DNA of 33,570 bases, from positions 1 to 33,570 of IMG/VR virus record IMGVR_UViG_3300037502_001929. One strand, 5' to 3'. This DNA comes from a virus. The notes beneath the pieces are model-generated. The model did no database searches and was not told the DNA's origin. It saw only the letters and a program-made list of their open reading frames with translations. Below are positions 5,464-27,816 of the stretch, one piece after another; the first letter of the stretch is position 1, and each line of letters opens with the position of its first letter. The translations under genes and the position numbers were made by a program.

Positions 5464-5856
5464 ATGATTTACAACTCAAAAGTTTATATAGATAAAAGCC
5501 CGATTCATGGTTGGGGCGTTTTTGCCAAAGAAGATATCATGGAAGGTGAAGTATTTGAGGAATGTCCTGTACTAACACTTCCATTAACATATGGTGAAGT
5601 AAGTTCATTACTAATAGATTATAGATTTAATTGGCCCTCAGGTGTTGATCCTTGGCAAGAACAAGTAGTTGCCTTAGGTTTTGGTAGTTTATATAATCAC
5701 AGTGAAACACCAAACGCTTATTGGTATTCAGATAACGAAAACAAAACATTCAAGTTCACGTCTAATAGAGTGATCAAACAAGGTGAGGAAATATTTGTTT
5801 GGTATGGTGATGTGAATTATTGGAATGACGGAAGAACTCATACAGAAGTTATCTAA
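5464..5856 (+). CDS. Small SET-domain protein (putative protein lysine methyltransferase)
   Basis: The 130-residue protein consists of a bare SET domain. HGWGVFA at 15-21 is the N-terminal SET motif. GSLYNHSETPNAYW (74-87) carries the NHS motif that binds the SAM adenine region and forms the pseudoknot. NRVIKQGEEIFVWYGD (101-116) is the GEE(I/L)xxxYG motif that supplies the catalytic tyrosine (Y114). The size is close to the chlorella virus enzyme vSET (119 residues). No pre- or post-SET cysteine cluster is present. The substrate is unknown and could be a host or virion protein. It is the last gene of the first operon, 2 nt after the glycosyltransferase-like gene, and a TATTTAT promoter for the next unit follows directly. 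Confidence 0.85.
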   Translation: MIYNSKVYIDKSPIHGWGVFAKEDIMEGEVFEECPVLTLPLTYGEVSSLLIDYRFNWPSGVDPWQEQVVALGFGSLYNHSETPNAYWYSDNENKTFKFTSNRVIKQGEEIFVWYGDVNYWNDGRTHTEVI

Positions 5857-17637: not shown

Positions 17638-18762
17638 TTAAATCACATATATTTGACGAGGCATAGCCCTAAACTTAAGTTGTTTGTTTAAGTTCTCCGC
17701 AAGTAATGCTTCCCTCTCCATTATCTTTTCAGGACGTAGTCTTGTTAGCCTACCTTCAGGACCTATTAATTCATCTATTAGTTTTGTTTTTTCATCTTTC
17801 GCTTCTGTTGCTAAAGATGCGTAATCCATAGTTAAATCACCGTCAGGGGCTTTTAAGTTACCACTAAACTTACCACGTACTCTAGCCAATGTTTCTTTAC
17901 AATAAGCCGTAAACCATCTTCTTACCCATACTTGTGCAGGATTGTTTAATTTGTACCAACTTAATTTATTAAATGGTACGTCAGATGGTAATAATATGAT
18001 ATCAGGATTATCAGCTAAACACTTGTCTCTATCACCTTGACCAACATCATAATACCAATACCAAACTCTTTGTTGAGCCATTTCGGCATTACCAAAGTCA
18101 AATCTACCACCTGGTACATTTAGTAAGTGTAATGCTTTTTTACCATCAGGTAATGCGGTTATATAATAAGTTAAATCGGGAGAAATAATTCTTCTTTGGA
18201 TGTTAATCTCTTGCATTCTCAATAACATATCAAATGCCGGCATTAAGAAGTAACTACCAGCCATGTTACCCATTTGTGCGAATCCACCCGTACCACCGAT
18301 ACCTCCACCGGCAATACCACCAAATGACCAGGGATCAATGAACATATTATTCATTTCTGTTGGTGAGAACCAAAGTACTTCATTGATTTCTCTACCGGCA
18401 GGAATTTCATATATTTGTTGGTTAGGTACTAATTGTACGTAATCTCTTTTAATTACCCAGTCACCACCCGCTTGTAGACCAACAATTTTCGAATAAGCAT
18501 ATGTGTATCTCGTTTCAAAATCTAAACTTTTGGTAACAAAGGCTCTTGCTAATGATTGTGTATCGAGATTTAAATTGTATAGTGAAGTCCATTGAGATTC
18601 AATCAACCAATCTTGTACATATTGAGAATAATCATCAATAGAATACTCTAAAAGAGTATCCATCATTTCATCCTCTAATTCCACCGATCTTAAAGGCGCA
18701 CCTAAAAGATGCCTTACTTTTTGGTAGAATTCACTTCTTTCTGGTTCGTTGATAATTGCCAT
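17638..18762 (-). CDS. Neck/head-completion protein (T4 gp13-like)
   Basis: The 374-residue protein begins with EFYQKVRHLLGAP and an acidic helical segment (DDYSQYVQDWLIES), then a long middle with a Gly-rich insertion (GGIAGGGIGGTGG). It ends with LARVRGKFSGNLKAPDGDLTMDYASL and KTKLIDELIGPEGRLTRLRP. This closing pattern is familiar from gp13-type neck proteins of T4-like phages (T4 gp13 is 309 residues), which close the head after packaging and join the tail. The gene is inverted relative to the gp14/gp15-like genes at 21739-23285. A TATTTATA site sits 20 nt upstream on its strand. Confidence 0.62.
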   Translation of the reverse strand: MAIINEPERSEFYQKVRHLLGAPLRSVELEDEMMDTLLEYSIDDYSQYVQDWLIESQWTSLYNLNLDTQSLARAFVTKSLDFETRYTYAYSKIVGLQAGGDWVIKRDYVQLVPNQQIYEIPAGREINEVLWFSPTEMNNMFIDPWSFGGIAGGGIGGTGGFAQMGNMAGSYFLMPAFDMLLRMQEINIQRRIISPDLTYYITALPDGKKALHLLNVPGGRFDFGNAEMAQQRVWYWYYDVGQGDRDKCLADNPDIILLPSDVPFNKLSWYKLNNPAQVWVRRWFTAYCKETLARVRGKFSGNLKAPDGDLTMDYASLATEAKDEKTKLIDELIGPEGRLTRLRPEKIMEREALLAENLNKQLKFRAMPRQIYVI

Positions 18763-18774
18763 AGAGTTTTTCTC

Positions 18775-18782
18775 TATAAATA
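18775..18782 (-). promoter_or_regulatory. TATTTAT late-type promoter (minus strand)
   Basis: On the - strand this reads TATTTATA, with the first T 20 nt before the ATG of the gp13-like gene. Its orientation follows the gene, showing the motif is used directionally. Confidence 0.66.
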
Positions 18783-18797
18783 TAAGGATAGATAACT

Positions 18798-19883
18798 TTA
18801 TTTAGATTTTTTACTTAAGTATAAATCATTAACAAATTCCCAATTTACGACATCCCAAAACTTATTAATATATTCATCACGTTTGTTTTGGTACTTTAAA
18901 TAATAAGCGTGTTCCCAAACATCAAGACCCAACAAAGGATATCCACCACCTTTAACGATGTTCATAAGTGGATTATCTTGATTTGGTGTGGACATAATTT
19001 TTAACTTACCGTTTTTATCTAAATACAACCAAGCCCAACCTGATCCAAAACGATCTTTAGCCGCCAGATTAAACTCATCTTTCATTTTTTTGATGTTACC
19101 AAAATCTTCTTTAATCTTTTTTAAAATCTCACCTTTTGGTAATTGTTTCTTTGGCGACAACATTTTCCAAAATAAAGCGTGATTAAACGCTCCACCTGCG
19201 TTGTTTCTAACTTTTTCATCAAACTTACTTATGGATTTTACAATTTCTTCCAAATCCATATCACCTTCTTTATCTTTGATTGCTTTGTTCAGTTTATCAA
19301 CATAACCTTTATAGTGTTTGTTGTAATGAACGTTCATTGTCTTTGAATCGATAAATCTTTGTAATGCAGAGTATGAGTAAGGTAACTCTTCAATACCTAC
19401 TTTTTTCATTTCAACCAATAAATTTTCTTTAATTGTTTGTTTTTCTGTTAATAAGATTTGTTCTGACAAAATATTAACCCTACCCTCAATACCTTTGTTT
19501 TCATACATAAGTTGCTCCAAGTCAGGATGTCTCTCTTCAAATTGTTTAACTAAACGACCTGCAAATGCGTTGGCTTCATCTTCATTTCTACCACCAATGT
19601 TTGGTCCTGGTTCTCTTCCCAATATAGTCATTTGATGTTCGTGAACCCACTCGTGAGCAAGGGTCCTCATAATATCACGATTCAATCTACCTTTGGCTAA
19701 AACTTTAATAAGATTATCACCACGTCTACTTCCTGTAGACATCTCACCTCTTCTACCATCCATAAAGATAATTTTCAAATCTTTCTTCAATGGATATTCT
19801 TCTTGTAAAAGTTTTATAAACTCATTAACAAGGTTTTTGTGTTTTTTTAAATCAGGATTTTCGTATTTGATTGAAACTTTCAT
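18798..19883 (-). CDS. Fusion: HExxH metallopeptidase-like domain plus Mn-type superoxide dismutase
   Basis: The 361-residue protein has two domains. Residues 1-~130 carry HEWVHEH at 77-83 (zinc motif H77-E78-x2-H81) followed by DEANAFAGRLV at 102-112, resembling the third-ligand Glu region of ImmA/IrrE-type peptidases. Residues ~165-361 are a full Fe/Mn superoxide dismutase. Ligands are H186 (NVHYNKH), H235 (FNHALFW), D321 and H325 (LGLDVWEHAYYLKYQNKRD). NNAGGAFNH and STPNQDNPLM carry the Gly/Gln pair typical of the manganese form, and the ending closely resembles bacterial SodA. SOD converts superoxide to peroxide and oxygen. The N-terminal partner's substrate is unknown. A TATTTATC site lies only 12 nt before the ATG, so the leader is very short or the true start is internal. 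Confidence 0.88.
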   Translation of the reverse strand: MKVSIKYENPDLKKHKNLVNEFIKLLQEEYPLKKDLKIIFMDGRRGEMSTGSRRGDNLIKVLAKGRLNRDIMRTLAHEWVHEHQMTILGREPGPNIGGRNEDEANAFAGRLVKQFEERHPDLEQLMYENKGIEGRVNILSEQILLTEKQTIKENLLVEMKKVGIEELPYSYSALQRFIDSKTMNVHYNKHYKGYVDKLNKAIKDKEGDMDLEEIVKSISKFDEKVRNNAGGAFNHALFWKMLSPKKQLPKGEILKKIKEDFGNIKKMKDEFNLAAKDRFGSGWAWLYLDKNGKLKIMSTPNQDNPLMNIVKGGGYPLLGLDVWEHAYYLKYQNKRDEYINKFWDVVNWEFVNDLYLSKKSK

Positions 19884-19887
19884 CTTT

Positions 19888-19895
19888 GATAAATA
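19888..19895 (-). promoter_or_regulatory. TATTTAT promoter candidate (minus strand)
   Basis: On the - strand this reads TATTTATC, with the first T 12 nt before the annotated ATG at 19883. The short distance implies a leaderless transcript or a later start. Confidence 0.45.
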
Positions 19896-23567: not shown

Positions 23568-26500
23568 ATGGCAACAAACAGTAAGGTTTTTGTTTCACCA
23601 GGTGTCTATACTTCAGAGGTTGACTTGAGCTTTGTAGCACAAAGTGTTGGGGTTACTACTTTGGGTATTGCTGGAGAAACTTTGATAGGACCAGCTTTTG
23701 AACCGATCTTTGTTACAAGTTTCGACGATTTCCAAACCATATTTGGCGGGACATCTCCAGAAAAATTTGTTAACACACAGATTCCAAAGTACGAAGCTGC
23801 GTATATCGCAAAGGCATATTTACAACAATCTAACCAATTGTTTGTAACTAGAATTCTTGGTTTATCAGGTTACGACGCTGGACCATCTTGGTCTATTACA
23901 ACCGTTGCAAATGTTAACCCAAGTACGATTGATGTGTGGTGTTTAAGTTCAGTAACTGACTACACTACTTGTGTGACAACTTGTGTTACACCAAAAGAAT
24001 TATCATTCAGTGTTGATTTCACAGGATGTACAAACAGCTCAACAACAGTTAGCTATCAAACATCATTCCCGGCAGAAATCGAGGAATTATTATTAAGTCA
24101 ATACGAGGAGTTCAATGGTGATACTTCAACATTAAACACTCAAATCCAAAACTTAGTATATAACGTAATTACAAGTACTAATCCTTATACTGCTGAGGAT
24201 GAACAAATTGCATACTTCGGTTCAATCGCAACTGATGATTATGATGTATTAAGTGGTTCAGGATTTAGTGCCGAAACTAATGTATTTGAGGTACCTTCAG
24301 TTTCATTTAATGATACTGATTTAAATTCGGCATTTAATGACTCTTGGTATTATGCGTTATTTAACAATAATGGTAATACAAATTATTCAGGGTTCTCATT
24401 CTTCACGTATGTGTCTGGTTTAACGGCTTATTACCCTAACCCAACACCTACACCAGGAGTTACCGCATCACCAACACCGACTCCGTCGTTTGTTAATCCT
24501 TGTATCACTCCTTCACCTTTCACATCACCAACACCTACACCAACACCTGTAAACATTGATTGTTATTCAGGTACTATCGTTGGTAAGATCTACTACTATA
24601 CAGGTACATCTTATGTTGATTACGATAATGTTGTTGTTGGTACATTAAGATCAAGAGGTATCTCAACTTACACAACTGATGTTAACCCTACTTATTCAGT
24701 AACGGGTACATCCGATGTGACATTAGATATGAGTGGTCAATATGCAGGAGTACTTAAAAACCCATATTTAACATTTGGTGTGAACGTTACCGACAAATTT
24801 GGTACGGCATTTAAGTTTGAAACATCTCTTACACAAAACGACCCTGAGTATTTTACTAAAGTATTTGGTATTACTAACTTCCAAAAACCAAGAATTGAGG
24901 TTCCTGTATTTGCCGAAGAAGTGTTCCAATCATTCTTAAATTACTCTTGGAGAAAAGGTTACATTAAAGGTTTAAATCCTAACTTAATAGCTTTAGACTC
25001 AGCACAAAGTGGTGACCCTGATTCAATTGGTTGGTACTTAGACAAATGGCAAACACCAGTTTCACCTTTTGTTGTGTCTGAATTAAGAGGTAATAAAGTT
25101 TATGACTTATTTAGATTCTACACAGTATCTGATGGTGATGCTGCCAACACATTAGTAAAAATTTCAATCATCAACCAAACATATAACAACTTAACGTTTG
25201 ATGTATTGATCCGTGATTATTTTGATACTGACGCAAATCCAGTTGTACTTGAGAAGTTCACAAACTGTACAATGAACCCAACTGAAAACAACTTCGTTGC
25301 CAATAAGATCGGTACATTAGATGGTGAGTACGCATTGAACTCAAGATATGTAATGATTGAAATGAGTGAGGACGCTCCAATCGACGCATTACCTTGTGGA
25401 TTTAACGGATTCAACTTTAGAAATTACGCAGGTGCTAATTCTCCGTTCCCAATTATCAAAGGTAAGTATGACTTCCCTGGTGAAGTAATTTATAACCCAC
25501 CATTTGGTTTATCTTCAGGTAACGATAACGCGTTAATTAGCCCGGGAGATAACGTAAGAAGAACTTACTTAGGTATATCTAACAGTTTAGGTTGGGATCC
25601 AGCTTACTTCGAATATGTTGGTAAGAGAAATCCAATCAATTCTTGTGATATCGATGGTCTACCATTTAATTACAGATCTGCAGGTTTCCACATGGACGTA
25701 AATGCAAGTGGTTTAACAATCGGACCTGAGTTCTCAACAAGTGGTGACCCAAGATTTATCTGTGGTAACTCACCGTTCATTACTGATCCTGAATTACCAA
25801 CAAACGCATACTATAGATTGTTCGCTCGTAAGTTTACATTCTTAGTACAAGGTGGTTTTGATGGATGGGATATCTACAGAGAGTGGAGAACAAACACAGA
25901 CCAATTCCAAATCGGCAGAAGCGGATTCTTAAGAGGAGCTTGTCCTTCTACAAGATACCCTAACGCCACAGGATGGGGAGCATTTAAAGAGATTTCTTTA
26001 GGTGATGGAACTCAAAACTTTGCAAACTCTGACTACTACGCATACTTGTTAGGTCAACAAACATTTGCAAACCCTGAAGCGGTAAACATCAACGTGTTTG
26101 TAACTCCGGGTATTGACTATGTTAATAATAGTAACTTAGTTGAGTCAGCAATTGAAATGATTGAATTTAACAGAGCGGATTCACTTTATGTATGTACAAC
26201 ACCTGACGTTGATATGTATGTACCATCTCTTAATGGTCAAGATTTCTTAATCTACCCAACTGAGGCGGTTGACAACTTAGACAACACAGGAATCGACTCT
26301 AACTATACTGCTACTTACTATCCGTGGGTATTAACAAGAGATAGTGTAAACAATACACAAATTTACATCCCACCGACAGCTGAAGTAACAAGAAACTTAG
26401 CGTTGACAGATAACATCGCATTCCCTTGGTTCGCTGCGGCGGGTTACACTCGTGGTATTGTTAACTGTATCAAGGCTCGTAAGAAGTTGACTCAAGAAGA

Positions 26501-26918
26501 TAGAGATATTCTTTACGTAGGTAGAATTAACCCAATCGCAACCTTCTCTGATGTTGGAACTGTAATTTGGGGTAACAAAACTTTACAAGTTAGAGAATCT
26601 GCTCTTGACAGAATCAACGTAAGAAGATTGTTATTACAAGCTCGTAAGTTGATTTCAGCAGTTTCAGTGAGACTATTGTTTGAACAAAACGACGCACAGG
26701 TAAGACAAGATTTCTTAAACGCGGTTAACCCAATCTTAGATGCGATCAGAAGAGATCGTGGTTTATATGACTTTAGAGTTACTGTATCCAACGATCCTGA
26801 AGATATCGATAGAAACCAATTGACAGGTAAGATTTACATCAAACCTACAAGATCACTTGAATTCATCGACATCACATTCTACATCACTCCGACAGGAGCA
26901 TCGTTTGAGAATATATAA
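23568..26918 (+). CDS. Tail sheath protein (T4 gp18-like), oversized with PT-rich insertion
   Basis: The 1116-residue protein carries the sheath N-terminus (FVSPGVYTSEVDLS, GETLIGPAFEPIFVTSFDDFQTIFGG, AYLQQSNQLFVTRI). It also has the sheath C-terminal core (PWFAAAGYTRG, LTQEDRDILYVGRINPIATF, GTVIWGNKTLQ, SALDRINVRRLLLQARKLI, LFEQNDAQVRQDF, LTGKIYIKPTRSLEFIDITFY). T4 gp18 has 659 residues. The extra length lies in the middle and includes a Pro/Thr linker at residues 290-328 with flanking Cys (ITPSPFTSPTPTPTP), probably on the outer surface. Asn, Asp and Phe codons often end in C, unlike the glycan genes, as expected for a highly expressed product. The gene has its own promoter and ends before a strong terminator. 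Confidence 0.95.
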   Translation: MATNSKVFVSPGVYTSEVDLSFVAQSVGVTTLGIAGETLIGPAFEPIFVTSFDDFQTIFGGTSPEKFVNTQIPKYEAAYIAKAYLQQSNQLFVTRILGLSGYDAGPSWSITTVANVNPSTIDVWCLSSVTDYTTCVTTCVTPKELSFSVDFTGCTNSSTTVSYQTSFPAEIEELLLSQYEEFNGDTSTLNTQIQNLVYNVITSTNPYTAEDEQIAYFGSIATDDYDVLSGSGFSAETNVFEVPSVSFNDTDLNSAFNDSWYYALFNNNGNTNYSGFSFFTYVSGLTAYYPNPTPTPGVTASPTPTPSFVNPCITPSPFTSPTPTPTPVNIDCYSGTIVGKIYYYTGTSYVDYDNVVVGTLRSRGISTYTTDVNPTYSVTGTSDVTLDMSGQYAGVLKNPYLTFGVNVTDKFGTAFKFETSLTQNDPEYFTKVFGITNFQKPRIEVPVFAEEVFQSFLNYSWRKGYIKGLNPNLIALDSAQSGDPDSIGWYLDKWQTPVSPFVVSELRGNKVYDLFRFYTVSDGDAANTLVKISIINQTYNNLTFDVLIRDYFDTDANPVVLEKFTNCTMNPTENNFVANKIGTLDGEYALNSRYVMIEMSEDAPIDALPCGFNGFNFRNYAGANSPFPIIKGKYDFPGEVIYNPPFGLSSGNDNALISPGDNVRRTYLGISNSLGWDPAYFEYVGKRNPINSCDIDGLPFNYRSAGFHMDVNASGLTIGPEFSTSGDPRFICGNSPFITDPELPTNAYYRLFARKFTFLVQGGFDGWDIYREWRTNTDQFQIGRSGFLRGACPSTRYPNATGWGAFKEISLGDGTQNFANSDYYAYLLGQQTFANPEAVNINVFVTPGIDYVNNSNLVESAIEMIEFNRADSLYVCTTPDVDMYVPSLNGQDFLIYPTEAVDNLDNTGIDSNYTATYYPWVLTRDSVNNTQIYIPPTAEVTRNLALTDNIAFPWFAAAGYTRGIVNCIKARKKLTQEDRDILYVGRINPIATFSDVGTVIWGNKTLQVRESALDRINVRRLLLQARKLISAVSVRLLFEQNDAQVRQDFLNAVNPILDAIRRDRGLYDFRVTVSNDPEDIDRNQLTGKIYIKPTRSLEFIDITFYITPTGASFENI
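24435..24551 (+). repeat. PT-dipeptide linker coding repeat within sheath gene
   Basis: It encodes NPTPTPGVTASPTPTPS and TSPTPTPTP runs (sheath residues ~290-328), similar to the linker of the surface protein at 13551-14399. Confidence 0.75.
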
Positions 26919-26988: not shown

Positions 26989-27816
26989 ATGAATTATAAA
27001 AAAGTAGTAAGACAGATTATTTCTGAGATCATTCACGATCAAATGAAACCTACGATGAAGTATTATGCTTTTGACTGGGATGATAATCTTATGTATATGC
27101 CAACAAAGATTTATACTAAAGATGATAAAGGTAAGGTTGTTGGTATGTCAACAGAAGATTTTGCTGAGTACAGAACTGAAATTGGTAAAGAACCATTCGA
27201 ATATGAGGGACACACCATAGTAGGTTTTGATGAAAACCCCTTCAGAGACTTCAACGTACCAGGTGATAAAGGTTTCTTAAGAGATGCAATGAAAGCACCT
27301 ACAGGACCGGCGTGGGATGATTTTGTTGAGGCTGTCAATAATGGGTCTGTTTTTTCAATCATTACCGCAAGAGGACACACACCTTCAGTTCTTAAAAATG
27401 CGGTTTATAACCTTATTAAGAAAAACAAACACGGTTTAAGTGAAAAAGAACTGGTTAAAAATTTAAAAAAATATAGAGAGTTGGCGGATGAAGAAGATTT
27501 GTCTGACGACGAATTAGTGAGATCATATTTAGATATGAATAGATATCACCCTGTTAGTTTTGGTCAAGGTTCTGCTGCAAATCCTGAACAATTAAAAGTT
27601 GATGCTATGAAAGAATTTATGACTTATGTTAATAATCTATCTAGACAATTACAAGAAAAGGCATTTATGAAAAATAAAATTAGTAATTATTTTGTTCCTT
27701 ATATTGGTTTTTCAGATGATGACTTAAGAAACGTTCAAGCGATGAAGAAACATTTTGATGATGAATCTGGTTTAGAAATCTATCATACTGGAGGAGGAAA
27801 GAAAACTAAATATTAA
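26989..27816 (+). CDS. HAD-superfamily-like protein between sheath and tube genes
   Basis: From the ATG at 26989 the protein has 275 residues. A longer frame back to 26857 exists but would lie inside the sheath gene and run through its terminator, so it is rejected. HAD-like motifs are visible: YAFDWDDN at 26-33 (motif I, DxD), SIITARGH at 123-130 (motif II) and IGFSDDDLRNV at 239-249 (motif IV acidic pair). A Lys-rich helical segment (140-215) lies between. HAD enzymes act mostly as phosphatases, including nucleotidases and polynucleotide phosphatases. It has its own promoter, is isolated by an upstream terminator, and is not a T4 tail gene, so it looks like an inserted accessory gene. Confidence 0.75.
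   Translation: MNYKKVVRQIISEIIHDQMKPTMKYYAFDWDDNLMYMPTKIYTKDDKGKVVGMSTEDFAEYRTEIGKEPFEYEGHTIVGFDENPFRDFNVPGDKGFLRDAMKAPTGPAWDDFVEAVNNGSVFSIITARGHTPSVLKNAVYNLIKKNKHGLSEKELVKNLKKYRELADEEDLSDDELVRSYLDMNRYHPVSFGQGSAANPEQLKVDAMKEFMTYVNNLSRQLQEKAFMKNKISNYFVPYIGFSDDDLRNVQAMKKHFDDESGLEIYHTGGGKKTKY

Follow-up and report, generated by a model that had tools for sequence, protein, structure and literature searches.

Organization of the Locus

The gene under study lies on the minus strand of the window—the whole stretch of 33,570 nucleotides that was analyzed—and belongs to a T4-related phage. Its open reading frame has an ATG start, 361 codons, and no internal stop. The encoded protein features an N-terminal zincin-like domain with the motif HEWVH (residues 1–128), a linker (residues 129–158), and a complete Mn-type superoxide dismutase (SOD; residues 159–361). 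The features of the locus are as follows.

18798–19883, minus strand: whole gene, peptidase-like domain, LxE-rich linker, and Mn-type SOD, 361 aa (open reading frame, Pfam, relatives, dN/dS)
19500–19883, minus strand: zincin-like (HExxH) domain, residues 1–128 (27-member alignment, AlphaFold model, structural alignments)
19641–19655, minus strand: HEWVH motif, H77–H81 (alignment)
19575–19583, minus strand: E101-D102-E103, candidate third zinc ligands (E101 and E103 invariant)
19410–19499, minus strand: inter-module linker, residues 129–158, with LSE141, LTE147, IKE153, and LVE158 as predicted prohead-protease sites
18801–19409, minus strand: Mn-type SOD module, residues 159–361 (Pfam, PDB match, ligands)
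19326–19328, minus strand: metal ligand H186 (E. coli H26; residue mapping to E. coli MnSOD)
19179–19181, minus strand: metal ligand H235 (E. coli H81; residue mapping to E. coli MnSOD)
18978–18980, minus strand: Mn-type Gln Q302 (E. coli Q146; residue mapping)
18909–18923, minus strand: metal ligands D321 and H325 (E. coli D167 and H171; residue mapping)
19889–19895, minus strand: TATTTAT, putative late promoter element of the clade, 5 bases before the ATG (enrichment in contig G004)
19913–21682, minus strand: SNF2-type helicase, upstream neighbor, conserved in relatives
17638–18762, minus strand: head-tail adaptor/neck-like protein, downstream neighbor, conserved (phrog_211, E 8e-10)
18763–18797, minus strand: short gap between the SOD gene and the neck gene; in most relatives, a third module (ctA, ctB, or ctC) follows an LxE linker here

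Several further genes of the window stand out. A SET-domain protein with a lysine-methyltransferase fold (5464–5856, plus strand; PF00856, E 5e-15) is located in a glycan/structural region, and the sugar and glycan genes between 250 and 12409 comprise a DegT aminotransferase, a hexapeptide transferase, a GlcNAc-transferase, and HtrL/YibB. The tail sheath protein (23568–26918, plus strand) has 1116 aa, of which only the part from about residue 833 onward matches the sheath domains. Between the sheath and tube genes, the gene at 26989–27816 (plus strand) bears an internal-Met start, MNYKKVVRQIISE, which is like that of a relative in contig G004, MNYKTFVKDIITE, and is reminiscent of a T4 targeting leader; its DWDDN motif suggests a HAD-type hydrolase, and it has no Pfam match. 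Rfam and tRNA scans of the window gave no match.

Conservation of the Fusion

A scan of IMG/VR with the window protein yielded 285 related stretches, 80 loci of which were kept for comparison. All 80 carry the fusion between identical neighbors, so the two-domain order that the original prediction proposed to look for in viral metagenomes is present throughout. The match spans residue 1 to at least residue 346 in 77 loci, at 68–96% identity; in the remaining three it starts at residue 14 or 19 and ends at 355–361. The predicted position between helicase and neck genes recurs as well: wherever the contigs of the relatives extend far enough, they show the helicase on the upstream side and the neck gene on the downstream side, usually with sheath and polymerase B genes beyond. 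Compared with six relatives, dN/dS is 0.02–0.14 in peptidase, linker, and SOD, the exception being one linker pair at 0.24 that comprises very few changes; two comparisons were not computable because of saturated dS. As judged by these ratios, all three segments are under purifying selection. The fusion is real by each of these measures—recurrence, neighbors, and dN/dS—and they rule out an assembly error.

The Superoxide Dismutase Module

The C-terminal half matches Pfam Sod_Fe_N at residues 165–243 (E 1.4e-22, 80.4 bits, cut-off 27) and Sod_Fe_C at residues 249–353 (E 1.7e-41, 140.8 bits, cut-off 20.9). Its best PDB relatives are 6gsc (E 8e-69) and 5a9g (E 2e-68), both Sphingobacterium enzymes. 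Besides the four metal ligands H186, H235, D321, and H325 and the Mn-type pair G231 (E. coli MnSOD G77) and Q302, all of which had been expected, the gateway residues H190 and Y194 (E. coli H30 and Y34) are in place. On the basis of these matches and residues, the module is a complete Fe/Mn SOD of the Mn type. A loss of ligands in relatives was looked for: ligands, Mn-type Gly and Gln, and gateway residues do not vary in two alignments, of 16 and 9 members, which extend to SODs without a peptidase.

The original prediction regarded a phage SOD as uncommon, which does not hold. Relatives are encoded on at least 545 viral stretches. The gene is common, being present on hundreds of viral contigs, many from lakes, and freshwater phage SODs have already been published and interpreted as ROS-protection genes (PMC6802176). 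The cellular relatives of the module are mostly from Bacteroidota, at 46–55% identity. In a tree of phage SODs and 60 sampled cellular SODs, those of phages group together as a single clade, set apart by a long stem (0.98 changes per column, SH-aLRT 100), and a recent host origin found no support in this sampled set. Literature on viral SODs in virions or pathogenesis concerns eukaryotic viruses and does not describe the present architecture.

The Zincin-Like N-Terminal Domain

H77, E78, H81, E101, and E103 are invariant across 27 aligned relatives; the segment DEANAFA corresponds to D102–A108. The AlphaFold model of residues 1–128 has a pLDDT of 86.6. A Foldseek search with this model gave no match below E 0.001, the weak matches being M61, BepA, and thermolysin. 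VIA-align superposed it at Z 8–9.7 mostly on HExxH metallopeptidases (M1 aminopeptidases, Wss1), in addition to YbeY. The structural alignments are scattered over several zincin families and, as judged by the model, the domain is zincin-like.

The likeness to ImmA/IrrE peptidases suggested for this half stands as far as the HExxH motif, which is invariant in all 27 relatives, but membership in M78 (ImmA/IrrE) is not supported. The Peptidase_M78 profile (Pfam PF06114) matches 4 of the 27 members with a best E of 0.037 and does not match the window protein, and SprT-like and DUF6055 profiles fit the domain as well. Neither a PDB sequence search nor PHROGs gave a relative of the domain, and a scan of genome contigs gave none that could serve as a cellular source. 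No HTH regulator gene lies beside the fusion; the conserved neighbors in the relatives are the helicase and the neck gene.

Third Modules and Their Separate Copies

In most relatives, the protein continues past the SOD with another LxE linker and then a third module, namely ctA, ctB, or ctC. The protein of locus L001, for example, has 731 aa and is 96% identical to the window protein over the shared part. The original prediction captured the fusion and the intact SOD ligands but missed both this third C-terminal module and the motif-rich linkers. The third module changes at least 22 times on a tree built from the peptidase plus SOD part of 60 sequences; its presence was scored from open reading frames, and some "none" cases may be contig errors. 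The window protein (no third module), that of L001 (ctA), and that of L003 (ctB) fall in one tree group, with L001 nearest and L003 next, and L140 and L143 combine a near-identical first part with different third modules, pointing to rapid module exchange. The module orders are pep-sod, pep-sod-ctA/ctB/ctC, pep-sod-ctC-ctB, sod-X, sod-ctB-ctA, and sod. In sod-X, the SOD precedes a module of ~280 aa with no Pfam match (L428 and about 50 other loci).

Module ctB features an invariant GQD...QVK pattern in the alignment, and residues 158–295 of its model superpose on Hjc, DpnI, and I-Ssp6803I (Z 8.1–8.5). According to the model, ctB has a PD-(D/E)xK-like, restriction-endonuclease-like fold, and a nuclease role is predicted. 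Module ctA carries a KAD...FEVKK motif similar to the ctB pattern; the model search covered the ctA part poorly. An acyl-CoA dehydrogenase fold for ctA, suggested by the top Foldseek matches on a two-domain model, was discarded: TM-scores below 0.2 are not meaningful.

Free-standing genes for ctA and for ctC exist too, and these begin with leaders of the MKIIITExQ type (MKIIITEEQY, MKIIISESQY, and similar). Contig G010 has a separate ctC gene in its head cluster, close to gp21, that shares 64% identity with the ctC of L078. In L078 and L080 (7–11 kb), a peptidase–SOD–ctC fusion is flanked on both sides by tandem separate ctC genes that bear MKIIISESQYKLIKEN leaders. In L292, the leader motif ESKxLNIILTEDQYKKL recurs at two internal junctions; a HEIQH module between the repeated leaders (aa 150–615) is perhaps a second metallopeptidase-like cargo.

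Contig G004 (272 kb) contains the leader pattern 11 times, compared with 2.4 predicted anywhere by shuffles; nine instances start at residues 2–3 of an open reading frame and a tenth at an internal Met. Small genes of this contig (L107, L108, and others) share near-identical leaders, MKRIIRLTESDLARIVRRVINEE, with TATTTAT upstream—a second leader family and possibly head cargo. One protein (L108:16761-17675, minus strand) combines a phage lysozyme domain (E 1e-18) with a MKVLITEDQY leader, so it is either a packaged lysozyme or the leader is not specific to head cargo.

Linkers, Leaders, and the L/I-x-E Motif

The linker of the window protein, NKGIEGRVNILSEQILLTEKQTIKENLLVE, carries four L/I-x-E triplets, the fourth of which (E158) stands immediately before the SOD start. 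Across 28 sequences, the triplet has a density of 9.1 per 100 aa in the peptidase–SOD linker versus 0.5–0.6 in the flanking domains, with 97 linker triplets observed versus 47.6 ± 5.2 in residue shuffles. Since relatives are not independent, the alignment columns were also shuffled jointly. Chance occurrence is disfavored by the residue shuffles, and by the stricter joint shuffle only at p 0.013. The linker after the SOD contains 37 triplets versus 13.8 ± 3.2 in shuffles.

SODs without a peptidase bear the same stretch as an N-terminal leader, mostly ~30 aa long and ending in the motif at the SOD start, as in MKKIEKQIQQLETQILENHVTKERELLITE followed by the SOD start MKKIGIEKLPYS. All 27 distinct leaders and 45 of 48 distinct linkers have the L/I-x-E triplet at the SOD start; within the SOD, Leu or Ile stands two positions before Glu in 251 of 1637 cases (15%). 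In six leaders, the border Glu is followed by Ala or Thr, not Met, and the leader must therefore be translated, because the SOD cannot start there alone. The fusion has no N-terminal capsid-targeting leader before the peptidase; only the SOD-first relatives have a leader. In T4, gp21 cleaves after L/I-X-E, and the internal proteins are directed into the head by a short N-terminal capsid targeting sequence, which is removed (PMC9026906). The L/I-x-E triplets at the module borders look like such sites and are predicted prohead-protease cleavage sites.

Prohead Protease, Capsid Protein, Expression, and Host

A Peptidase_S77 prohead protease homologous to gp21 is encoded on 4 of 15 related contigs (E about 1e-23) and a gp23 homolog on 5 of the 15, which are mostly fragments. 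The window has neither gene, as it stops short of the head genes. Five capsid proteins read LINE/A (slash marking the position of the T4 cut) where the T4 site corresponds, which in T4 gp23 reads LTE/A.

The late-type promoter of the original prediction is plausible in a different form. A T4-type TATAAATA promoter on the coding strand was not found upstream of the gene; TATTTAT is located there instead. In G004, TATTTAT precedes 97 of 282 open reading frames—many of them structural genes—versus 32 for the reverse complement and 17 in shuffles. LxE occurs within the first 25 residues of 56 of the 97 frames with TATTTAT versus 66 of the 185 without it (p 6e-4). This pattern fits late expression, and a clade-specific late promoter is plausible from these counts. 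Among isolates, the closest capsid proteins are those of phages of Microcystis and Flavobacterium, and the host is likely a member of Bacteroidota. Flavobacterium phage immuto, a cultured relative found by its capsid protein, carries neither the SOD nor the leaders.

A Probable Head-Packaged Polyprotein

Packaging with the virion, raised in the original prediction as one role of the protein, is now the best-supported reading because of the prohead-protease-type sites at the module borders, a reason absent from that prediction. The protein is probably a polyprotein that is packaged in the head, processed by the prohead protease, and ejected together with the DNA. Produced late, it would be drawn into the prohead core, where a gp21-type protease would cut the linkers after L/I-x-E. 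Cleavage would release the zincin-like enzyme and the Mn-type SOD, the latter beginning at residue 159; from the proteins of most relatives, a swappable third enzyme would be released as well. Remaining in the head alongside the DNA, these products would then be ejected into the cell, where the SOD would remove superoxide as infection begins and the exchangeable modules would act on host or rival DNA. This reading is favored because border motifs, leaders, gp21 and gp23 homologs, module orders, module turnover, and the fold of ctB all agree with it. The wider version, for which belief and doubt are evenly balanced, is a phage delivery system of a kind yet to be described: a modular polyprotein with constant zincin and SOD, swappable effectors (at least one nuclease-like), and built-in prohead-protease sites that is packed in the head and ejected; with the same even balance, one gene would supply several injected enzymes and evolve by exchanging modules at the cleavage linkers.

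Several points count against packaging. L/I-x-E is short, and its linker enrichment under joint shuffling reaches only p 0.013; the fusion lacks a targeting leader of its own; and gp21 and gp23 come from related contigs, not from the window. The same leader type precedes the lysozyme-domain protein and may thus not mark head cargo only, and immuto lacks SOD and leaders. In addition, no virion proteomics for the clade was found in the literature.

The main competitor, which we consider unlikely, is an uncut two-domain enzyme of the infected cell: the SOD would be an auxiliary metabolic gene that shields the cell or replicating DNA from superoxide late in infection, and the linker a helical spacer. 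Intact SOD ligands and strong purifying selection agree with this, as do the published reading of freshwater phage SODs as ROS-protection genes (PMC6802176) and the frequent use of L, E, and K in helical linkers. However, a spacer leaves unexplained why the same stretch serves as a leader ending at the SOD start where no peptidase precedes it (27 of 27), why LxE linkers stand before other modules, and why separate module copies bear leaders. Less probable still is a protein that is packaged but uncut, or cut without separate function, its SOD fold being mainly a stable vehicle for getting the C-terminal module into the head. The constancy of the SOD amid quickly turning-over third modules would suit a carrier, which nevertheless would need neither the metal ligands and second-shell residues—all of them kept—nor LxE sites at its borders.

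The remaining two readings carry little weight. An ImmA/IrrE-like role for the peptidase half, which would then act on a stress regulator of the host in partnership with the SOD, is very improbable: HEWVH and EDEANAFA resemble the M78 pattern and four members match it weakly, but SprT-like and DUF6055 profiles do equally well against a best M78 E-value of 0.037, the structural alignments spread over several zincin families, and helicase and neck genes—not a regulator—adjoin the gene, against the suggested action on such a regulator. An assembly or annotation artefact joining two genes can practically be dismissed, as a frame break near residue 190 in L045, the sole such locus named, is all that speaks for it, against the fusion in the same place in 80 of 80 loci and dN/dS well below 1 across all three segments.

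Comparison with Known Systems

The closest parallel to the packaged polyprotein is the set of T4 internal head proteins (IPI–IPIII, Alt) and gp21 (PMC9026906). Shared features are L/I-x-E sites adjoining the cargo, separate cargo genes that carry short leaders, fast cargo turnover, and, in the relatives, a gp21 homolog with a matching gp23 site. Unlike in T4, several enzyme modules reside in one polypeptide with internal sites, the SOD is conserved, and no leader precedes the first module. The protein was not filed as a T4-type internal protein because it has no N-terminal targeting leader and we infer, from sequence, its presence in the virion. In phiKZ and SPN3US (PMC5694885), the head contains many inner-body proteins that are ejected along with the DNA, several of which the prohead protease cleaves after a short x-E motif. 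These phages belong to a different group, the motif in phiKZ is S/A-x-E (PMC9026906), and they are not known to have an SOD polyprotein.

With bacterial Fe/Mn SODs of the Bacteroidota Mn type, the phage module shares all ligands and Mn-type residues at up to 55% identity, yet the phage SODs form a separate long-stem clade and are preceded by a leader or linker. Other phage SODs (PA5oct group, Vibrio phage 2.275.O, and freshwater MW462191) belong to the same Fe/Mn family and match the SOD half only, at 27.7–43.7% identity. Polymorphic toxins combine a constant N-terminal part with exchangeable C-terminal effector domains; the fusion family may resemble them, ctB being nuclease-like. By analogy, the difference would be that the constant part here is enzymatic and the setting a phage head. 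Phage SODs were already known, whereas no account of the peptidase–SOD–third-module architecture was found in the open-access literature, most subscription papers lying outside the scope of the search.

Implications

A stronger finding than the fusion itself is a multi-module family whose borders carry what looks like the T4-type prohead-protease cleavage motif. Its leader and linker patterns offer a sequence handle for head cargo in uncultured phages. If the packaged-polyprotein reading is true, an antioxidant enzyme would be among the first proteins that these phages deliver, and superoxide would be a hazard or a defense at the moment of DNA entry. The phages would then pack several enzymes by means of one gene and swap them quickly.
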